From the NCBI RefSeq assembly GCF_019710475.1, contig NZ_JAJFAX010000003.1, positions 62,001 through 126,000 of the forward strand: a DNA stretch of 64,000 nucleotides. The letters run 5' to 3'. The position numbers and the translations under genes are program-made. This document shows, piece after piece, positions 11,175-17,319 of the stretch (positions are counted from its first letter, which is position 1; each line of letters starts with the position of its first letter). The stretch comes from Glycomyces sp. TRM65418. GTDB taxonomy: Bacteria > Actinomycetota > Actinomycetes > Mycobacteriales > Micromonosporaceae. The notes below the pieces were generated by a model. That model was not told the origin of the DNA and did not search any database. It worked only from the letters and a program-made list of their open reading frames with translations.

Positions 11175-11987
11175 TCACCGGGCACGGACGTGCTTGAGGA
11201 GCTGCGCGTGCGCGTACTCGCAGACCACGGCGTGGCGGTAGACCGCGTGCGGCACGTCGGTGTTCGAATCGGCCCGGATCGACAGGTCCCCGTTCTGCCA
11301 TCGCAGGAAGGTCGGATCGCCCGTGATCTCGGCGAGGATCGCGAGGATCGAGTCGTCGAAGCGCATGGAGTGCACGGCCCGGCGGTACTCGTCGGGTGTC
11401 AGACACGCCGCGAACGGCAGGTTCATCAGGCACAGGGCCGTCTGTACGTCCAGGCGCATCAGCCGGAACCGGTGCGGCTCGGGGTCCAGAGGCGGCACGT
11501 CGAGGTCCGAATAGTCCAGGGGACCGACCCTGGTCATGTCGATCGCCGCGAGCACCTCGTAGACGTTGACGTCGTGCTCGATCACCGCCCGGTCGCCGAG
11601 TCCGGCGAGGGCCGCCGGCCGCAGGGCCACCGGTTCGATCCCGGTGGCGGTGTTGCGGACGATGAAGTTGAGCAGGTTCGTCTCGATCACGAAGTGGCGG
11701 ATGAGGAGTTCGACCGCGAGCGGTGAGACGAAGCGGCGCAGGAACCACAGGCACAGCCGGTCCATGAGCCGGTGCGCGGTCCACCGGACGGGGGTGAGCC
11801 GCTTGAGGACCACGATGACGACGGCGAGGACCCGCGAGACCGGCCGCGCCACCGGGTAGAGCCAGGTGCGGGTCCACCCGCGCTGGTCGTCGGTGACCAT
11901 GCGGGCGACCTCGGGTTCCAGCGGCATCGCGGGGTCGGCGATCATCGAGGCCCAGATCGGGGGGTCGGCCAGTGTCTTCTCAGACAT
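11175..11987 (-). CDS. Unrecognised protein coupled to the KAS III-diiron fusion
   Basis: A 270-residue protein that I cannot assign to a family with confidence; it resembles DUF6999-type proteins from memory only. Residues about 45-100 are rich in hydrophobic and basic residues (VSRVLAVVIVVLKRLTPV, LWFLRRFVSPLAVELLIRHF), suggesting membrane association. Further on are RHFVIETNLLNFIVRNTA and VIEHDVNVYE, with conserved-looking His, Glu and Asp. The ATG at 11987 overlaps the end of the upstream synthase gene by 8 bases, so translation of the two is probably coupled. It is likely a partner in the same pathway. Confidence 0.7.
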   Translation of the reverse strand: MSEKTLADPPIWASMIADPAMPLEPEVARMVTDDQRGWTRTWLYPVARPVSRVLAVVIVVLKRLTPVRWTAHRLMDRLCLWFLRRFVSPLAVELLIRHFVIETNLLNFIVRNTATGIEPVALRPAALAGLGDRAVIEHDVNVYEVLAAIDMTRVGPLDYSDLDVPPLDPEPHRFRLMRLDVQTALCLMNLPFAACLTPDEYRRAVHSMRFDDSILAILAEITGDPTFLRWQNGDLSIRADSNTDVPHAVYRHAVVCEYAHAQLLKHVRAR

Positions 11988-13821
11988 GGTCGAGCTCTTC
12001 GAGTTGCAGCGCGTACAACCGGGCGACGACTTTGGCGGTCTTGACGATCGCGTCGGCCGCCTCGGCGTCGACACGGGGCGAGGACAGGATGGCCTGGAGT
12101 TTCGCGAAGTGGTCGTCGTCGGCCTCGCCGTGGTAGGCGAGGAACGAGACCTGGTCGTCCCGCAGCCCCAGCAGCTCCTTGAACCGCGCGGCCCAACCGG
12201 CGGCCTTGCCGGTGCCCAGGCCCTCGATGACGAACATCGCGCCGAGCAGGCCGATCGGGTCGGGTCCGCTCGCGGAGTGGAACATGTACGCCGACAGCGC
12301 CTCCGAGCCGATGTTCTTCTCGCCGGAGCGGATGTCCTCGATCGAGCCGCCGCAGGCGGCGTAGTCGCGTTCGATCATCATGAAGTCGCGGTGCTCCTCG
12401 GCGGCGTGGGCGATCGCGGCGCTGCGCAGGTCGAACAGGTCGACCGAGAAGTTCGACGCGGCCCGGGAGATCCACCGGGCCCCGTCGGCGACCTGCTGGC
12501 GCAGGTTGAACAGCAGCCGCCGGTAGTCCTCGATCGTGGCGGCGCCCTCGGCCAGGCGCCGCATCACCGGCACCTGGTCGAGCCGCCGCTCGAAGTCCTG
12601 CCAGACCGCGTCCAAGCGGGCGTGCACGTCCGCACCGGTCGGCACGGTGGCCGCGACGGACTCGGGCGCGGCCGCCGGAGCCGCGACCGGCCTCGACACG
12701 GCCGGCTCGGCGTCCACGCAGGTCAAGTGCGCGAACGCGAACGAGAACCGGCCCGATTCGGGGACGGCCAGGAGGACCGTCTGGCCGGGCTCGAACCGCC
12801 CGGTCCGCCAGCATTCCTCCAACGCGATGAAGATCGAGGCCGCGCCGGTGTTCCCGCGGGTCTCCAGGTTCGAGAACCACCGCTCCGTGTCGACGGCCGC
12901 GCCCGAGGCGGCCAGCCGGTCGAAGACGATGTCGCGGAACGCGTTCGTCGAGTAGTGGCACAGCACGTGGTCGAGCCGCTCGAGGTCGATCAGACCTTCC
13001 CGGGCGAGCCGGGCGAACTCCTGCAGCCCGGCATCGGCCAGCGCCGGCAGGGCGCTCGTGTCCTGGCGCAGCAGCATCATCCCCGCCTGCTCGGCGGCCG
13101 CGGCGCTGCCGAGGTCCTGCCAGGTCCGCCCGGCGGCGGGAACGGGATCCCCGGCCATGCCGGCCCGCATGCACACCGGGTGCTCGTGCGCGAGCGAGAC
13201 GGTGCGCACCCAGTCCACGCGCAGCGACGGCCGGTCGGGCCGCGGCCGCGCCTCCACCAGGACCGCCCCGGCGCCGTCGGAGAGCATCCACCGCAGGAAG
13301 TGCGCGTCGCCGTCGCCCCCGCCGACGCCGCCGAAGTGGGAGCCGCGCAGCCACCGGCTCGACAGCTCGCTGCCGACCACGGCCGCGCGCCGACGGTCGC
13401 CCAGGCGCACCTTGGCGACGGCCGCGTCGAGCGCGGCGAGCCCGGAGGCGCAGACCCCGCCGGCCGAGAGCAACTGCATCGGGCCGCCGCCCAAGCGTCC
13501 GTGCACCATGGACGCGAACCCGGGCACCAGCAGGTCGCCCTGGGTCGTCGCGGTGGCGAGCATGTCGAGATCGGCCGCCCCGACGCCGCGGTCGCCCAGG
13601 GCGCCGCGCAGCGCGTTGGCGGCGAGCTCCTCGTTCAGCTCCGTGGTGCGGCCCTGCGCGTCGAGGGCATAGTGGCGCTTGGCGATCCCGTTGGCGGCCA
13701 GGACGCGGCGGCGCAGCCGGTCGCCGCGTTCGTCGACCCCGCCCAGGAGCGCCGCGATCTCGTCGTTGCCGACCGGAGGACCGGGAAGGTACGCCCCGGC
13801 GGCGGTGATGAAAGCGTTCAT
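11980..13821 (-). CDS. Ketoacyl synthase III fused to a heme-oxygenase-like diiron domain
   Basis: A 613-residue two-domain enzyme. Residues 1-365 are a FabH-like thiolase fold with the catalytic triad in order: Cys124 (GGVCASG), His289 (LCHYSTN) and Asn324 (RGNTGA). An Ala/Pro-rich linker follows at 372-397. Residues 398-613 form a helical heme-oxygenase-like domain of the iron-containing (HDO) type, with candidate ligands Asp446, Glu476, His477, Glu533, His564, Asp568-570 and His571. Known HDO enzymes do oxidative chemistry such as alkene formation (UndA) or N-oxygenation (SznF). The reaction here is unknown; condensation or acyl transfer followed by oxidation is inferred. The ATG at 13821 gives the FabH-like N-terminus. 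Direct repeats lie just upstream and a two-component system precedes it. Confidence 0.85.
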   Translation of the reverse strand: MNAFITAAGAYLPGPPVGNDEIAALLGGVDERGDRLRRRVLAANGIAKRHYALDAQGRTTELNEELAANALRGALGDRGVGAADLDMLATATTQGDLLVPGFASMVHGRLGGGPMQLLSAGGVCASGLAALDAAVAKVRLGDRRRAAVVGSELSSRWLRGSHFGGVGGGDGDAHFLRWMLSDGAGAVLVEARPRPDRPSLRVDWVRTVSLAHEHPVCMRAGMAGDPVPAAGRTWQDLGSAAAAEQAGMMLLRQDTSALPALADAGLQEFARLAREGLIDLERLDHVLCHYSTNAFRDIVFDRLAASGAAVDTERWFSNLETRGNTGAASIFIALEECWRTGRFEPGQTVLLAVPESGRFSFAFAHLTCVDAEPAVSRPVAAPAAAPESVAATVPTGADVHARLDAVWQDFERRLDQVPVMRRLAEGAATIEDYRRLLFNLRQQVADGARWISRAASNFSVDLFDLRSAAIAHAAEEHRDFMMIERDYAACGGSIEDIRSGEKNIGSEALSAYMFHSASGPDPIGLLGAMFVIEGLGTGKAAGWAARFKELLGLRDDQVSFLAYHGEADDDHFAKLQAILSSPRVDAEAADAIVKTAKVVARLYALQLEELDHV

Positions 13822-13865
13822 GCCTTCATTGGACCGCGCCTCGCGTTGTCGCGCATCGGCGCTTC

Positions 13866-13894
13866 TACTCAAAACCGCGGCCGAAAGTACTCAA
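13866..13894. promoter_or_regulatory. TACTCAA direct repeats upstream of the KAS III-diiron gene
   Basis: TACTCAA occurs at 13866-13872 and at 13888-13894, exactly 22 bp (two helical turns) apart, in the 83-bp gap between the response-regulator gene and the synthase gene. This suits a dimeric activator such as the adjacent NarL-type regulator. Read on the minus strand, the distal copy also gives a TTGAGT -35-like hexamer, but the -10 is weak. Confidence 0.4.
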
Positions 13895-13904
13895 CGTCAC
13901 CGGT

Positions 13905-14540
13905 TCAGTCGCCGTCGATGCCCTGTTCGATCGCGTATCGCACCAATTGGGACCGGTTGTGCAACTGCAGCTTGGACAGGATGTGCTGCACGTGGTTCTG
14001 CACCGTCCGCTGCGACAGGACCAGCCGCTCGGCGATCTCCCGGTAGGTCAGGCCCTTCGCGACCAGCCGCAGCACCTCGGTCTCCCGCGCCGACAGGTCC
14101 GGGCGCTCGGCCCCGCCCGCGTTCGCGAGGCGCCGGTACTCGCCGAGCACCAGTCCCGCCAGCCCGGGCGTGAACACCGCGTCGCCCGCCGCGACCCGCT
14201 CGACCGCCTCCGCGAGCTCGGCCGCCGACGCCGACTTCACCAGGTACCCCCGCGCCCCGGCCTTGATCGCCTCGAGCACATCGGACGATTCGCCGCTCGC
14301 CGAGAGGACCAGCACCGCCGTCGGGCAGTCCTCGCCCAGCCCCTGCAGCACCGCCACCCCGGACCGGTCCGGCAGCTGCAGGTCGAGGATCGCCACCTCC
14401 GGCCGCAGCTCGCGGATCGCCGTGAGCGCCGCCCGGCCTTCACCGACGGCGGCGAGCACCCGGTGGCCCGCCTCCTGGAGGTCGCGGGCGATCGCCTCCC
14501 GCCAGATCGGGTGGTCATCGACCACGATCAGGGTGGCCAT
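13905..14540 (-). CDS. NarL/LuxR-type response regulator
   Basis: A 211-residue response regulator. The receiver domain (1-120) has the acidic pair in VDDHP, the phospho-acceptor Asp in AILDLQLP, Ser in LVLSAS and Lys in YLVKSAS. A LuxR/GerE helix-turn-helix fills the C-terminus (LSARETEVLRLVAKGLTYREIAERL...TVQNHVQHILSKL). Its first 26 bases overlap the end of the histidine-kinase gene, so the pair is translationally coupled. The next gene downstream, after 83 bp, is the ketoacyl synthase fusion, a likely target. Confidence 0.92.
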   Translation of the reverse strand: MATLIVVDDHPIWREAIARDLQEAGHRVLAAVGEGRAALTAIRELRPEVAILDLQLPDRSGVAVLQGLGEDCPTAVLVLSASGESSDVLEAIKAGARGYLVKSASAAELAEAVERVAAGDAVFTPGLAGLVLGEYRRLANAGGAERPDLSARETEVLRLVAKGLTYREIAERLVLSQRTVQNHVQHILSKLQLHNRSQLVRYAIEQGIDGD

Positions 14541-15657
14541 CGGCGCCTCCTCGTTCAGTGCGCGGGCGCGGCACCCGCAACTCGACTTCCGTGCCCCACC
14601 CGGGGGACGAGACGACCGCGACGCTCCCGCCCAGCGCCCGGATCCGGCCCTCGATGGACTGCGCCACCCCCAGCCGGCCCTCCGCGGCGGCCTCCGCCAG
14701 CCGGCCCGGCGCGATCCCCGGACCGTCGTCGCGCACGCTCACCTGGACCGCGTCGCCGTCGTCCTCCACCAGCAGCCAGATCCTCGTCTCCTCCGGGCAG
14801 TGCTCCCGCACATTGTCGACCGCGCTCGCCACGGCCGCCGCCACCTCGCGGGCCGTCGCCGCGGGCAGCCGCACCGGCGTCGCCGGGGCCGACACGGTCA
14901 CCGACGCGTCGGCGTGCCGCCCCACGAGGTCGCGCAGGTCGCGCCGGCCGTCGAGCGGATGCCGGTACGCCTCCGACCAGATGAGCGCCCGCAGCGCCTC
15001 CTCTTGGCGGCCCGCCAGCCGGCCGAGCTCTTCGGCCTCGCCGCCGATCTCGTGGCCGCGCCGCTGGACGAACGCCAGCACCTGCAGCACCGAGTCGTGG
15101 ATGTCGCGGGCGAGGCGCTCGCGTTCGCGCGCGGCGGCGGTGCGCTCGGTCGCCTGCCGCGTCCGCTCCTCCGCCTCCACGCCCAACCGCACCAGATGCC
15201 CCACGGTGAAACCCGTGAGCACCAGCAGCGCCGCCTCGTTGACCGTGTTCTCGTTGATGCCGCCCCGGAACACCATCCCGAACACCGCGATCACGCCGCC
15301 GGCGACCGCGCCGCTGCGCCGCCCCCACGCCGCGCCCCAGGCGAGCACGACCCCGGCCAGCCACGGCCCCAGCGAGATCGGCACCGACCGATCGGCCACG
15401 TCCAGCGCCCATGCCGAAGCCGCCACCGCCACCGCCGTCACCGCGAGGTCCGCGTAGACGACCCGGTCCTCGTACCCCCGCCGGGTGTACCGGTAGCTGA
15501 CCGCCCCGGTCCATCCGATCAGGACGGCCACCAGCAGCGCCGCCCAGACCGGCCGCACCAGCGCCTCGAACGCCAGCGCCCCCAGCAGTACCGGATAACC
15601 CAAGGCGGCGAACCGGAACACCGCGATCGCCCGCCGCAGCTGCGTCTGCATGCCCAT
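14515..15657 (-). CDS. Membrane histidine kinase, MacS-like
   Basis: A 380-residue sensor kinase. About six hydrophobic segments fill residues 1-165 and no large external domain is seen, so it may sense something in or at the membrane. The HisKA_3-type dimerisation motif RLARDIHDSVLQVLAFVQRRG holds the phospho-accepting His, as in NarL-partner kinases. The ATPase domain has VRDDGPGIAPGRL and SSPGWGTEVELRVPR. The overall shape matches actinobacterial MacS-family kinases. AGGAT lies upstream of the ATG at 15657. It is encoded upstream of and overlapping its cognate response regulator. Confidence 0.88.
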   Translation of the reverse strand: MGMQTQLRRAIAVFRFAALGYPVLLGALAFEALVRPVWAALLVAVLIGWTGAVSYRYTRRGYEDRVVYADLAVTAVAVAASAWALDVADRSVPISLGPWLAGVVLAWGAAWGRRSGAVAGGVIAVFGMVFRGGINENTVNEAALLVLTGFTVGHLVRLGVEAEERTRQATERTAAARERERLARDIHDSVLQVLAFVQRRGHEIGGEAEELGRLAGRQEEALRALIWSEAYRHPLDGRRDLRDLVGRHADASVTVSAPATPVRLPAATAREVAAAVASAVDNVREHCPEETRIWLLVEDDGDAVQVSVRDDGPGIAPGRLAEAAAEGRLGVAQSIEGRIRALGGSVAVVSSPGWGTEVELRVPRPRTERGGADGHPDRGR

Positions 15658-15703: not shown

Positions 15704-16300
15704 TCAAGCCTTCCGGACCGGATAGATCAGGTGCAGCACCCGGTCGCCCTCGATCACCCGCGGATTGTCCAGCATCATCGGCGCCCCCTCGAAGCCGCCG
15801 AAATACCGCTTCCCGGAGCCGAGCAGCACCGGCACCACGTTGCAGTGCAGCTCGTCCACGACACCGGCCCGGATCGCCTGATCGCCCGTGACGCCCGCCG
15901 CCACCGAGACGTCCCCGTCCCCGGCGAACTCGCGCGCCCGCTCCACCGCCGCGGCCACGCCCTCGGTGACGAACGTGAACGGCGCCGTGGCCGCGTGCTC
16001 CCACCCGCTCGGCGGCTCGTGGGTGACGACGAAGGCGTGCTCGCCGGCCGGCGGCACGCCCTCCCAGCCGTTCGCGAGGTCGAAGACGTGCCGGCCCACC
16101 ACGGCCGCCCGGACGGCGCTCAGCTCCCGCTGGAGGTAGCCGGCGCTGGCGGGGCTCACGTGGGACGTCCATTTGGGATCGCCGGCGACGACCTCGATCT
16201 CGCCGTTGCCGTACCAGTCGAAGAGCGGGCCGACGCTGTCGTACTCGTCGGCGATGAAGCCGTCGAGGGAGACCGTGGCGTCGACGAATACCTTGCCCAT
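15704..16300 (-). CDS. Dihydrofolate reductase-fold (RibD C-terminal) protein
   Basis: A 198-residue member of the RibD_C/dihydrofolate-reductase-like family, presumed NADPH-dependent reductases of unknown substrate. The N-terminus KVFVDATVSLDGFIAD is the usual family opening. The C-terminal part has VAAGVTGDQAIRAGVVDELHCNVVPVLLGSGKRYF, typical of the fold's second half. GAGGAGG precedes the ATG at 16300. The kinase gene follows after 46 bases, but a functional link is not evident. Confidence 0.85.
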   Translation of the reverse strand: MGKVFVDATVSLDGFIADEYDSVGPLFDWYGNGEIEVVAGDPKWTSHVSPASAGYLQRELSAVRAAVVGRHVFDLANGWEGVPPAGEHAFVVTHEPPSGWEHAATAPFTFVTEGVAAAVERAREFAGDGDVSVAAGVTGDQAIRAGVVDELHCNVVPVLLGSGKRYFGGFEGAPMMLDNPRVIEGDRVLHLIYPVRKA

Positions 16301-16389: not shown

Positions 16390-17319
16390 TCAGCCGTGCG
16401 TCGGTCCGGCCGCGGCCTCGGCGCGCGTCGGAGCGGCCGTGCCCGCGGCGCGGCGTCGGCGCGCCCAGCGGATCGGGAGGACGATCGCGGCCGCGACCAC
16501 GGCGGCGAGCGGCAGGAACGGCAGGAGCACCCCGACGACGACCGAGAGGCCGACGAGCAGTCCCACCGCCGCGGAGAAGCCGACGCCGAGACCGTCCGAG
16601 AAGCTGTCCGGAGCCTTGGCGGCCCCGGTTCCGGATTCCTTCGCGGACGGCTGGTACACGTTGAACTCGACGGTCGACAGGGCCACCCGGTCCTCCAAGC
16701 CGTTCAACTGCGACTGGAGCGACGCCAGTTCGCCCTCGCGTTCGGCGAGTTCGGCCTCCAGCTCCAGGATGGCGTTCACCGACGTGGCCTCGGCGAGCAG
16801 GCCTCGGACGCGGTCGACGCTGGCGCTCTTGGTCGCGATGTGCGCGGCGAGGTCCACTGCGGCCTCGGTGACGTCCTCGGTGGAGACCGACCGGTACAGC
16901 TCCTCGTCGCCGAGCGCCGCGAGTCCTTCCATGGCCTCGCTGAAGTGCTCGGAGGGGATGCGCAGGATCAGGTGCGCCCGGTCGTATCCGCCTTCGTCGC
17001 CCGCCTTGCGGTCGCGTTCGTCGGCCGTCACGAATCCGCCGAAGGACTCGGCGAGGTCCCAGGCCGCCTCGGCGACCGCTTCGGGGTCGGCGTCCTGCAC
17101 GCTCAGGGCGGCCTCGTAGATGACGGCCCGATCGGCGGTCTCGACCTGGGCGGGCGGTGTCCCGCCCTCAGCTTCGACGTCGGCGGCTTCGGGGGCGGCG
17201 TGCTCGTCCAGGTCGGCGGGCTCGGCGCCGCCGCTGGAGGCGTTGTCGCCGTTCGCGCTGCAGCCGAACAGGAGCAGTGAGGCCGCGGCGAGCGCGGCTG
17301 TGTATCTGAGGAGTCGCAT
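16390..17319 (-). CDS. DUF4349-type lipoprotein
   Basis: A 309-residue lipoprotein: the signal LLRYTAALAAASLLLFGC ends with an LFGC lipobox. An acidic linker follows, then a DUF4349-like domain (AVIYEAALSVQDADPEAVAEAAW, FGGFVTADE, LILRIPSEHFSEAM) with a coiled coil (LELEAELAEREGELASLQSQL). Near the C-terminus is one membrane helix (LGVGFSAAVGLLVGLSVVVGVLLPF) and a basic tail. The protein would be tethered at both ends. No function is established for the family. It diverges from the peptide deformylase gene across a 323-bp gap. Confidence 0.82.
   Translation of the reverse strand: MRLLRYTAALAAASLLLFGCSANGDNASSGGAEPADLDEHAAPEAADVEAEGGTPPAQVETADRAVIYEAALSVQDADPEAVAEAAWDLAESFGGFVTADERDRKAGDEGGYDRAHLILRIPSEHFSEAMEGLAALGDEELYRSVSTEDVTEAAVDLAAHIATKSASVDRVRGLLAEATSVNAILELEAELAEREGELASLQSQLNGLEDRVALSTVEFNVYQPSAKESGTGAAKAPDSFSDGLGVGFSAAVGLLVGLSVVVGVLLPFLPLAAVVAAAIVLPIRWARRRRAAGTAAPTRAEAAAGPTHG

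Follow-up and report, generated by a model that had tools for sequence, protein, structure and literature searches.

Ketosynthases of the StlD/DarB type serve the stilbene, dialkylresorcinol (DAR) and flexirubin pathways; they share the thiolase fold and a Cys-His-Asn triad, and form a family that builds rings by joining two acyl chains. In the classical DarAB pathway, the gene for DarA adjoins that of the ketosynthase (KS). According to passages of the respective papers, DarB yields 4-carboxy-2,5-dialkylcyclohexane-1,3-diones (PMC5515871), cyclohexanediones are among the intermediates of the DarABC pathway (PMC4414361), and a cluster table labels darB 'DAR-cyclase' and darA 'DAR-aromatase' (PMC3949708). 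The heme-oxygenase-like diiron oxidases (HDOs) are described in parts of a 2026 review as catalysing C-C cleavage, desaturation, alkyne formation, N-oxygenation and rearrangement, with UndA decarboxylating fatty acids and with metal-independent members also found in the heme-oxygenase fold; nowhere in that review are the words fused, fusion, ketosynthase or resorcinol used (PMC13108848). The present work concerns a locus at which a KS and a predicted HDO meet in one polypeptide: in a stretch of 64,000 nucleotides from Glycomyces sp. TRM65418 (contig NZ_JAJFAX010000003.1, positions 62,001 to 126,000; hereafter the window), a minus-strand gene encodes a StlD/DarB-like KS fused to an HDO domain, preceded by a two-component system and followed by a gene of the Pfam family DUF6999.

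The fusion gene (11980..13821, minus strand, stop codon included; 613 residues) is a single open reading frame (ORF), whose ATG start is preceded by an AAGG-type site. Its KS half (residues 1-369; 12715..13821) matches PF08541 with 42.1 bits against a gathering score of 26.6, and its HDO half (residues 400-613; 11983..12624) matches PF14518 with 40.6 bits against a gathering cut-off of 28.9, which bears out the original prediction, made from the letters alone, that an acyl-condensing enzyme is truly fused to a diiron-type oxidase domain. The AlphaFold model of the whole chain has a mean predicted local distance difference test score (pLDDT) of 90.1 and a predicted template modelling score (pTM) of 0.63, and the two halves are separated by a linker of low confidence (residues 376-396; 12634..12696; pLDDT below 50). 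Downstream, the DUF6999 gene (11175..11987, minus strand; 270 residues) starts within the 3' end of the fusion, overlapping it by exactly 8 bases (ATGTCTGA), as had been noticed at the outset; the gene, then regarded as being of unknown family, is assigned to PF22523 with E 7e-81. The order on the minus strand is thus kinase, regulator, fusion and DUF6999.

When considered by its nearest relatives, the KS half lies close to StlD. StlD/DarB models match it at E 6.9e-98 and 2.1e-84, both below their curated cut-offs, and among solved proteins StlD (5gk0) comes closest in sequence (E 1.4e-63) and also in a search with the predicted fold (Z 52.0, root-mean-square deviation 1.6, 362 aligned residues, 36% identity). 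The next enzyme in that search is AbyA1 (Z 39.8), and FabH and OleA follow at 38 to 39. A plain FabH or OleA identity is rejected, since StlD is far closer. The triad Cys124-His289-Asn324, which had been recognised in what was then called a FabH-like synthase, is indeed intact, being the same in 30 of 30 relatives and invariant in an alignment of 57 rows, whereas the likeness to FabH gives way to StlD and DarB. By sequence and predicted fold, the KS stands nearest to StlD, whose family makes cyclohexanediones and dialkylresorcinols, and is not simply FabH-like. It differs from described StlD/DarB enzymes in being fused to, or standing beside, an HDO, in having DUF6999 and not DarA as a partner, and in scoring below the family cut-off.

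The HDO half has in common with UndA, SznF, HrmI, PolF and MboA the PF14518 assignment, a predicted helical domain, a Glu in a late helix and the motif His-x3-Asp-x2-His, and differs from them in being fused to a KS. Its profile matches one solved chain, 3dde, which has the heme-oxygenase-like fold (E 3.5e-8) and in which Glu533 and His564-x3-Asp568-x2-His571 align to identical letters; in Foldseek, a viral structure named 'Haem oxygenase-like' was found with E 1.4e-3 and probability 1.00, the PDB lists for the whole fusion being filled by matches of the KS. Among 92 HDO domains taken from 93 loci (locus L161 has none), D/E446, H472, E476, D479, E533, H564, D568 and H571 are each constant (92 of 92). 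With three His and five carboxylates, this set would amply supply the predicted dimetal site, for which HDOs use 3 His and 3-4 carboxylates; D/E446, H472, E476 and D479 are putative ligands only. Most of the ligands proposed earlier (446, E476, E533, H564, D568 and H571) are therefore among the constant positions, but D569 and D570 vary, and His477 is rejected as an invariant ligand, being kept in 85 of the 92 and replaced by Gln in 7, against 92 of 92 for His472, Glu476 and Asp479. Nor is the Asp that had been noted in the first helix a special feature, because position 446 alternates between Asp (66 domains) and Glu (26). The source genome encodes one other PF14518 protein, on another contig (L138:1501-2031), whose nearest PDB entry is HrmI (E 2.7e-7).

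The fusion is by no means confined to Glycomyces. A named scan matched 312 stretches, of which 295 encode relatives; the best 80 were kept, 40 of them actinobacterial and 40 from other taxa. Of 300 genomes drawn from the family, 17 of the 21 other Glycomyces genomes encode full-length relatives (E 0 to 1e-291), which also occur outside the genus. Relatives outside the actinobacteria come from Bacteroidota, Paenibacillus, Myxococcota, Pseudomonadota, Acidobacteriota, Neomarinimicrobiota, Chlorobiota, Melainabacteria and one bin titled Euryarchaeota, many of them being metagenome bins whose taxon names may be wrong; cultured genera with the module include Glycomyces, Paenibacillus, Aquimarina and Echinicola. 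KS and HDO are encoded in one ORF at 74 of the 80 loci and in neighbouring ORFs at five, and L068 has a frame break in its KS; an annotation error at the join is rejected on the strength of the 74 single-frame fusions. At three loci taken as split (L157, L162 and L163), every frame of the KS-HDO stretch is interrupted by stops, and a Pseudoalteromonas plasmid carries KS, HDO and DUF6999 as three genes, with the HDO annotated as 'iron-containing redox enzyme family protein'. The genome of the laboratory organism Caulobacter vibrioides, included as a control, matches PF22523, PF14518 and NF005293 (E 1e-60), these being matches to the genome as a whole, whatever the distance between the genes. 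Flagellimonas algicola has two separate KS-HDO-DUF6999 copies (L116 and L127).

DUF6999 is the constant companion of this pair. It lies downstream of the fusion on the same strand at 78 of the 80 loci, within 250 bases at 76 of them and at 271 and 794 bases in L110 and L108, respectively, and a comparison of neighbourhoods, in which the ORFs of 26 loci were set against those of all 80, returned only KS-HDO and DUF6999 as recurring in nearly all loci. The neighbourhood search that had been proposed for other actinomycetes thus finds KS-HDO with DUF6999 there and across several phyla. When approached from the other side, with the DUF6999 model, 15 of 1041 genomes were found (4/396, 5/296 and 6/349, each set including one centre genome picked beforehand, i.e., 3 of the 15), with a KS adjacent in 15 of 15 and an HDO in 14 of 15. 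In the literature searched, with subscription journals mostly outside its reach, we found no such KS-HDO fusion, no treatment of heme-oxygenase-like enzymes or of PF14518 together with the DAR pathway, and no mention of DUF6999.

The relation between the HDO and DarA is best seen from the KS. Loci of StlD/DarB-type KSs were collected with a KS model, and their 1.5-kb flanks were scored for DarA (with a model built from five seeds), HDO and DUF6999. DarA without HDO or DUF6999 is found at 19 of the 36 loci and HDO without DarA at 17; no locus has both or lacks both (15 of the 36 come from 12 genomes chosen for holding the fusion). DUF6999 is inside the flank at 16 of the 17 HDO-type loci and further on in L117, which is the same place as L108. 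Among 198 Bacteroidota and 249 Pseudomonadota genomes, the 24 KS loci divide into 17 of the DarA and 7 of the HDO type, and removal of two centre genomes chosen earlier leaves 21 loci, 16 and 5. DarA is absent from the 80 fusion loci as well as from the 17 HDO-type loci, and its model has no match in the source genome, in a search run without a positive control. DarA and HDO are alike in being predicted oxidising partners of a DarB-type KS encoded at the same place, whereas as proteins they are unrelated, one flavodoxin-like (a weak match to PF12682, E 5e-4 and below cut-off, in one of four DarA proteins scanned) and the other of PF14518. In a tree of 69 KS domains, the best topology needs two changes of partner, one change suffices in 4% of bootstrap trees, and a single DarA clade is not rejected by the approximately unbiased (AU) test (p 0.5). 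Near-identical relatives were dropped from both KS trees; further rows dropped were L068, L072, L074, L075 and L101 (KS hits under 300 residues), L161 and two FabH rows, and L175 (HDO type) was left out of the 69-domain tree. The partner exclusion is old and clean, and not many times independent. A Streptomyces linear plasmid typed as mobilizable (L141:6706-14352) carries a DarB-DarA pair in a resorcinol-type cluster with acyl carrier proteins, a FAD monooxygenase, an SCP2 protein and a P450, its DarA being 71% identical to that of genome G231.

The third gene of the module is itself a probable enzyme. DUF6999 has seven near-invariant residues (H98, H138, D139, D180, D211, H252 and E257, each in at least 90 of 90 or 91 sequences from the 93 loci) and a confident, helical predicted model (pLDDT 91.9). 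A fold search with this model gave no significant match (Foldseek best E 2.1; VIA best Z 3.3, root-mean-square deviation 6.6, 139 aligned residues), the few PolF, TenA and SznF rows in it included; its profile has no match among PDB sequences, and hhalign gives a probability of 0.2% against the HDO profile. We regard it as a probable second metal-binding enzyme, and its HD motif may also suggest a Coq4-like protein; the gene here is a true DUF6999 member, which is tied to KS-HDO. In the remaining two of the 80 loci, both from Saprospiraceae (L073:6428-7198 and L089:3182-3583, the latter cut by the contig end), a gene that by eye looks desaturase-like, with His boxes, stands in its place; Pfam has no match for the one of these proteins that was scanned. 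As a possible replacement, it hints at the role of DUF6999. Upstream, a fatty-acid hydroxylase-like gene directly precedes the fusion at 23 of 80 loci (PF04116 in two scanned) and lies near the module at three Pseudomonadota loci (PF04116 in two scanned). A Polyangiaceae bin (L069:8639-9985) has this hydroxylase joined with a PAP2 phosphatase domain in one protein, a possible sign that the product is a membrane lipid. In Pseudoalteromonas THAF3, a small protein that by eye is membrane-like and has His motifs is encoded directly before the KS (L140:8439-8993); Pfam finds nothing in it, and it is perhaps a counterpart of the hydroxylase.

In Glycomyces, the module is accompanied by regulators that recall the two-component system MacRS, for which a consensus sequence was identified and which positively regulates antibiotic production, according to parts of PMC10345050. 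The kinase gene (14515..15657, minus strand; 380 residues) scores 402.4 bits on the NCBIfam MacS model (cut-off 300), and the regulator gene (13905..14540, minus strand; 211 residues) encodes a receiver and a LuxR/NarL output domain, as the original prediction of a MacS-like kinase and a NarL-type regulator ahead of the fusion had it. A tandem box, TGAGTAC-N15-TGAGTAG (13865..13893, minus strand), lies 43 bases upstream of the fusion; this pattern occurs once in the 5.09-Mb source genome, and the box holds the only TGAGTAC of the window on either strand. The MacR recognition motif, which we take to be TGAGTACnnGTACTCA, was not found in the window as a full palindrome with up to three mismatches. 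TGAGTAC or its complement lies within 160 bases 5' of the KS at 28 of 40 actinobacterial loci, many of these 28 being close relatives; among 160-base pieces taken at random from the same loci, 0.37% contain it (L075, with an incomplete KS, was dropped from the count of loci). Glycomyces loci commonly have two half-sites spaced by about 22 bases, and Phytomonospora (L048) has an exact palindrome, TGAGTACCGGTACTCA, upstream. The kinase-regulator pair is present at 23 of 40 actinobacterial loci and at 0 of 40 others, and is for this reason rejected as a part of the core module; the pair stands without the box in L046 and L047, and the box without the pair, within the locus examined, in L054, L056, L063, L064, L067, L070, L071 and L072. 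Control of the fusion by its own two-component system, as envisaged originally, is probable in view of the recurring box, but such a system belongs to a part of the actinobacterial loci only. The tandem occurring once in the genome, the regulator is probably dedicated to the fusion operon; it would bind the box, and the effect may be of either sign. In contrast with MacRS, which the system resembles in its kinase and in the TGAGTAC half-sites upstream of its target, it adjoins a single operon. Further 5' of the kinase, a RibD_C-type reductase gene (15704-16300) and a DUF4349 gene (16390-17319) have no visible link to the module, and the long ORFs of the opposite strand, such as 11866-14046 (plus), look like shadows of high GC content.

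With the synthase being StlD/DarB-like instead of FabH-like, the likely chemistry is ring formation, to a cyclohexanedione or resorcinol, coupled to oxidation of the ring; of the acyl condensation or transfer plus oxidation suggested originally, the coupling of condensing and oxidising activities is kept, but acyl transfer and a hydrocarbon product are not. The finding is also more general than first stated: judged by its sequences, it is a variant of the DarB-type pathway core, in which a predicted diiron-type oxidase domain replaces DarA and a third predicted enzyme is added. Beside the computed family assignments, conservation, partner exclusion and box, we infer a scheme that covers ring formation, metal, O2, the oxidation itself, the product and the activity of DUF6999. 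The KS half would load a fatty acyl thioester on Cys124 and condense it with a second acyl thioester to a 4-carboxy-2,5-dialkylcyclohexane-1,3-dione, as for StlD/DarB, and the nascent ring would pass to the attached HDO domain; with both in one chain, the reactive beta-keto acid may be handed over directly. There, a dimetal site, probably of iron and held by the constant His and carboxylates, would oxidise the ring with O2, the simplest course being one in which the carboxylate is lost, to give a dialkylresorcinol or a more oxidised ring, which is classically the job of DarA. The HDO is put in the place of DarA because DarB makes cyclohexanediones, DarA is tabled as an aromatase and the two partners exclude each other; by analogy, the known reactions of HDOs make a decarboxylative aromatisation plausible. 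DUF6999, and in some lineages the membrane fatty-acid hydroxylase, would then tailor the product, and in Glycomyces and its relatives the MacRS-like system would control both genes via the TGAGTAC box. That the fusion is in this way a self-contained, O2-dependent counterpart of the DarB and DarA pair is a tentative proposal, which as a whole we hold at a little short of even chances.

Several observations weigh against it. The KS reaches 328 bits on NF005293, whose curated StlD/DarB cut-off is 450 (an Aquimarina fusion scores 431.5). In the HDO half, D/E446, H472, E476 and D479 map uncleanly on the ligand pattern of characterised HDOs, which use one His and one Glu in the first-half region. 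In a Bacteroidota genome (G924), L161 (3323-5201) combines an incomplete DUF6999 frame, which scores under the Pfam cut-off, with a DarB-like KS downstream, and has neither HDO nor DarA. Since the DarA and HDO types form deep groups in the KS tree, their exclusion amounts to approximately two switches and not to 36 independent events. Finally, both types occur at separate loci of the same genome in Aquimarina muelleri (G300), Aureibaculum flavum (G302), Dactylosporangium vinaceum (G310) and G887.

This last point leads to the rival that survives best, since genomes that keep both types may make different products with them, and the second would be redundant if the product were identical. Here, the HDO acts on the nascent ring, yet not as an aromatase: it would hydroxylate, contract or cleave the cyclohexanedione to a quinone, cyclopentenone or tropolone-like compound, which DUF6999 or the fatty-acid hydroxylase would complete. 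The C-C cleavage, N-oxygenation and rearrangements of HDOs, according to parts of the review (PMC13108848), and the hydroxylase-like gene directly upstream at 23 of 80 loci are in its favour, whereas a plain replacement of DarA needs fewer assumptions; we consider it unlikely, while taking it seriously. Alternatively, the HDO may act before condensation, desaturating or oxidising an acyl precursor and supplying an enoyl or keto partner for the KS, which would agree with the desaturation and alkyne formation reported for HDOs in the same parts of PMC13108848 and with the desaturase-like gene of the two Saprospiraceae loci; the excluded partner DarA, however, is tabled as an aromatase and thus as an enzyme acting after condensation, and this order of events seems improbable. 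Much more doubtful is a FabH- or OleA-like condensation or transfer coupled to an UndA-like decarboxylation, yielding a hydrocarbon or alkene: UndA does decarboxylate fatty acids (PMC13108848, in part) and OleA shares the fold of the KS (Z 38.6), but StlD is a much closer match (Z 52.0), the best scores come from the StlD/DarB models, and the neighbourhood comparison, in which no search was aimed at OleB, OleC or OleD, returned only KS-HDO and DUF6999 as recurring in nearly all loci. That the HDO half serves the KS without catalysis, as a scaffold or a metal sensor, which the metal-independent members of the fold would allow (PMC13108848, in part), is hardly credible given eight His/carboxylate positions kept in 92 of 92 domains over several phyla, also where the HDO is a separate gene.

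Recurring in many bacterial phyla and not found beside DarA, the usual oxidising partner of such ring builders, the module suggests an oxygen-dependent way of making signal-like lipids that has yet to be described. It is possible, if rather less than evenly probable, that it constitutes an unrecognised core crossing phyla, in which a KS-tethered, diiron and O2-dependent oxidative decarboxylation or rearrangement of the newly formed carboxy-cyclohexanedione would be new for HDOs, DUF6999 would be a new family of metalloenzymes that acts on what the HDO yields, and the products would be new membrane or signal lipids. A subfamily of HDOs, a Pfam family without a function (DUF6999) and a branch of DarB-type KSs without the known aromatase are hereby joined in one testable system, for which the clean partner exclusion predicts a chemistry, the oxidation of a ring derived from fatty acyl chains, and therefore an assay. 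If this is true, genome searches that expect DarA would miss a branch of the resorcinol-like lipids, and the HDO superfamily would gain the oxidation of a carbocycle coupled to its synthesis within one chain.

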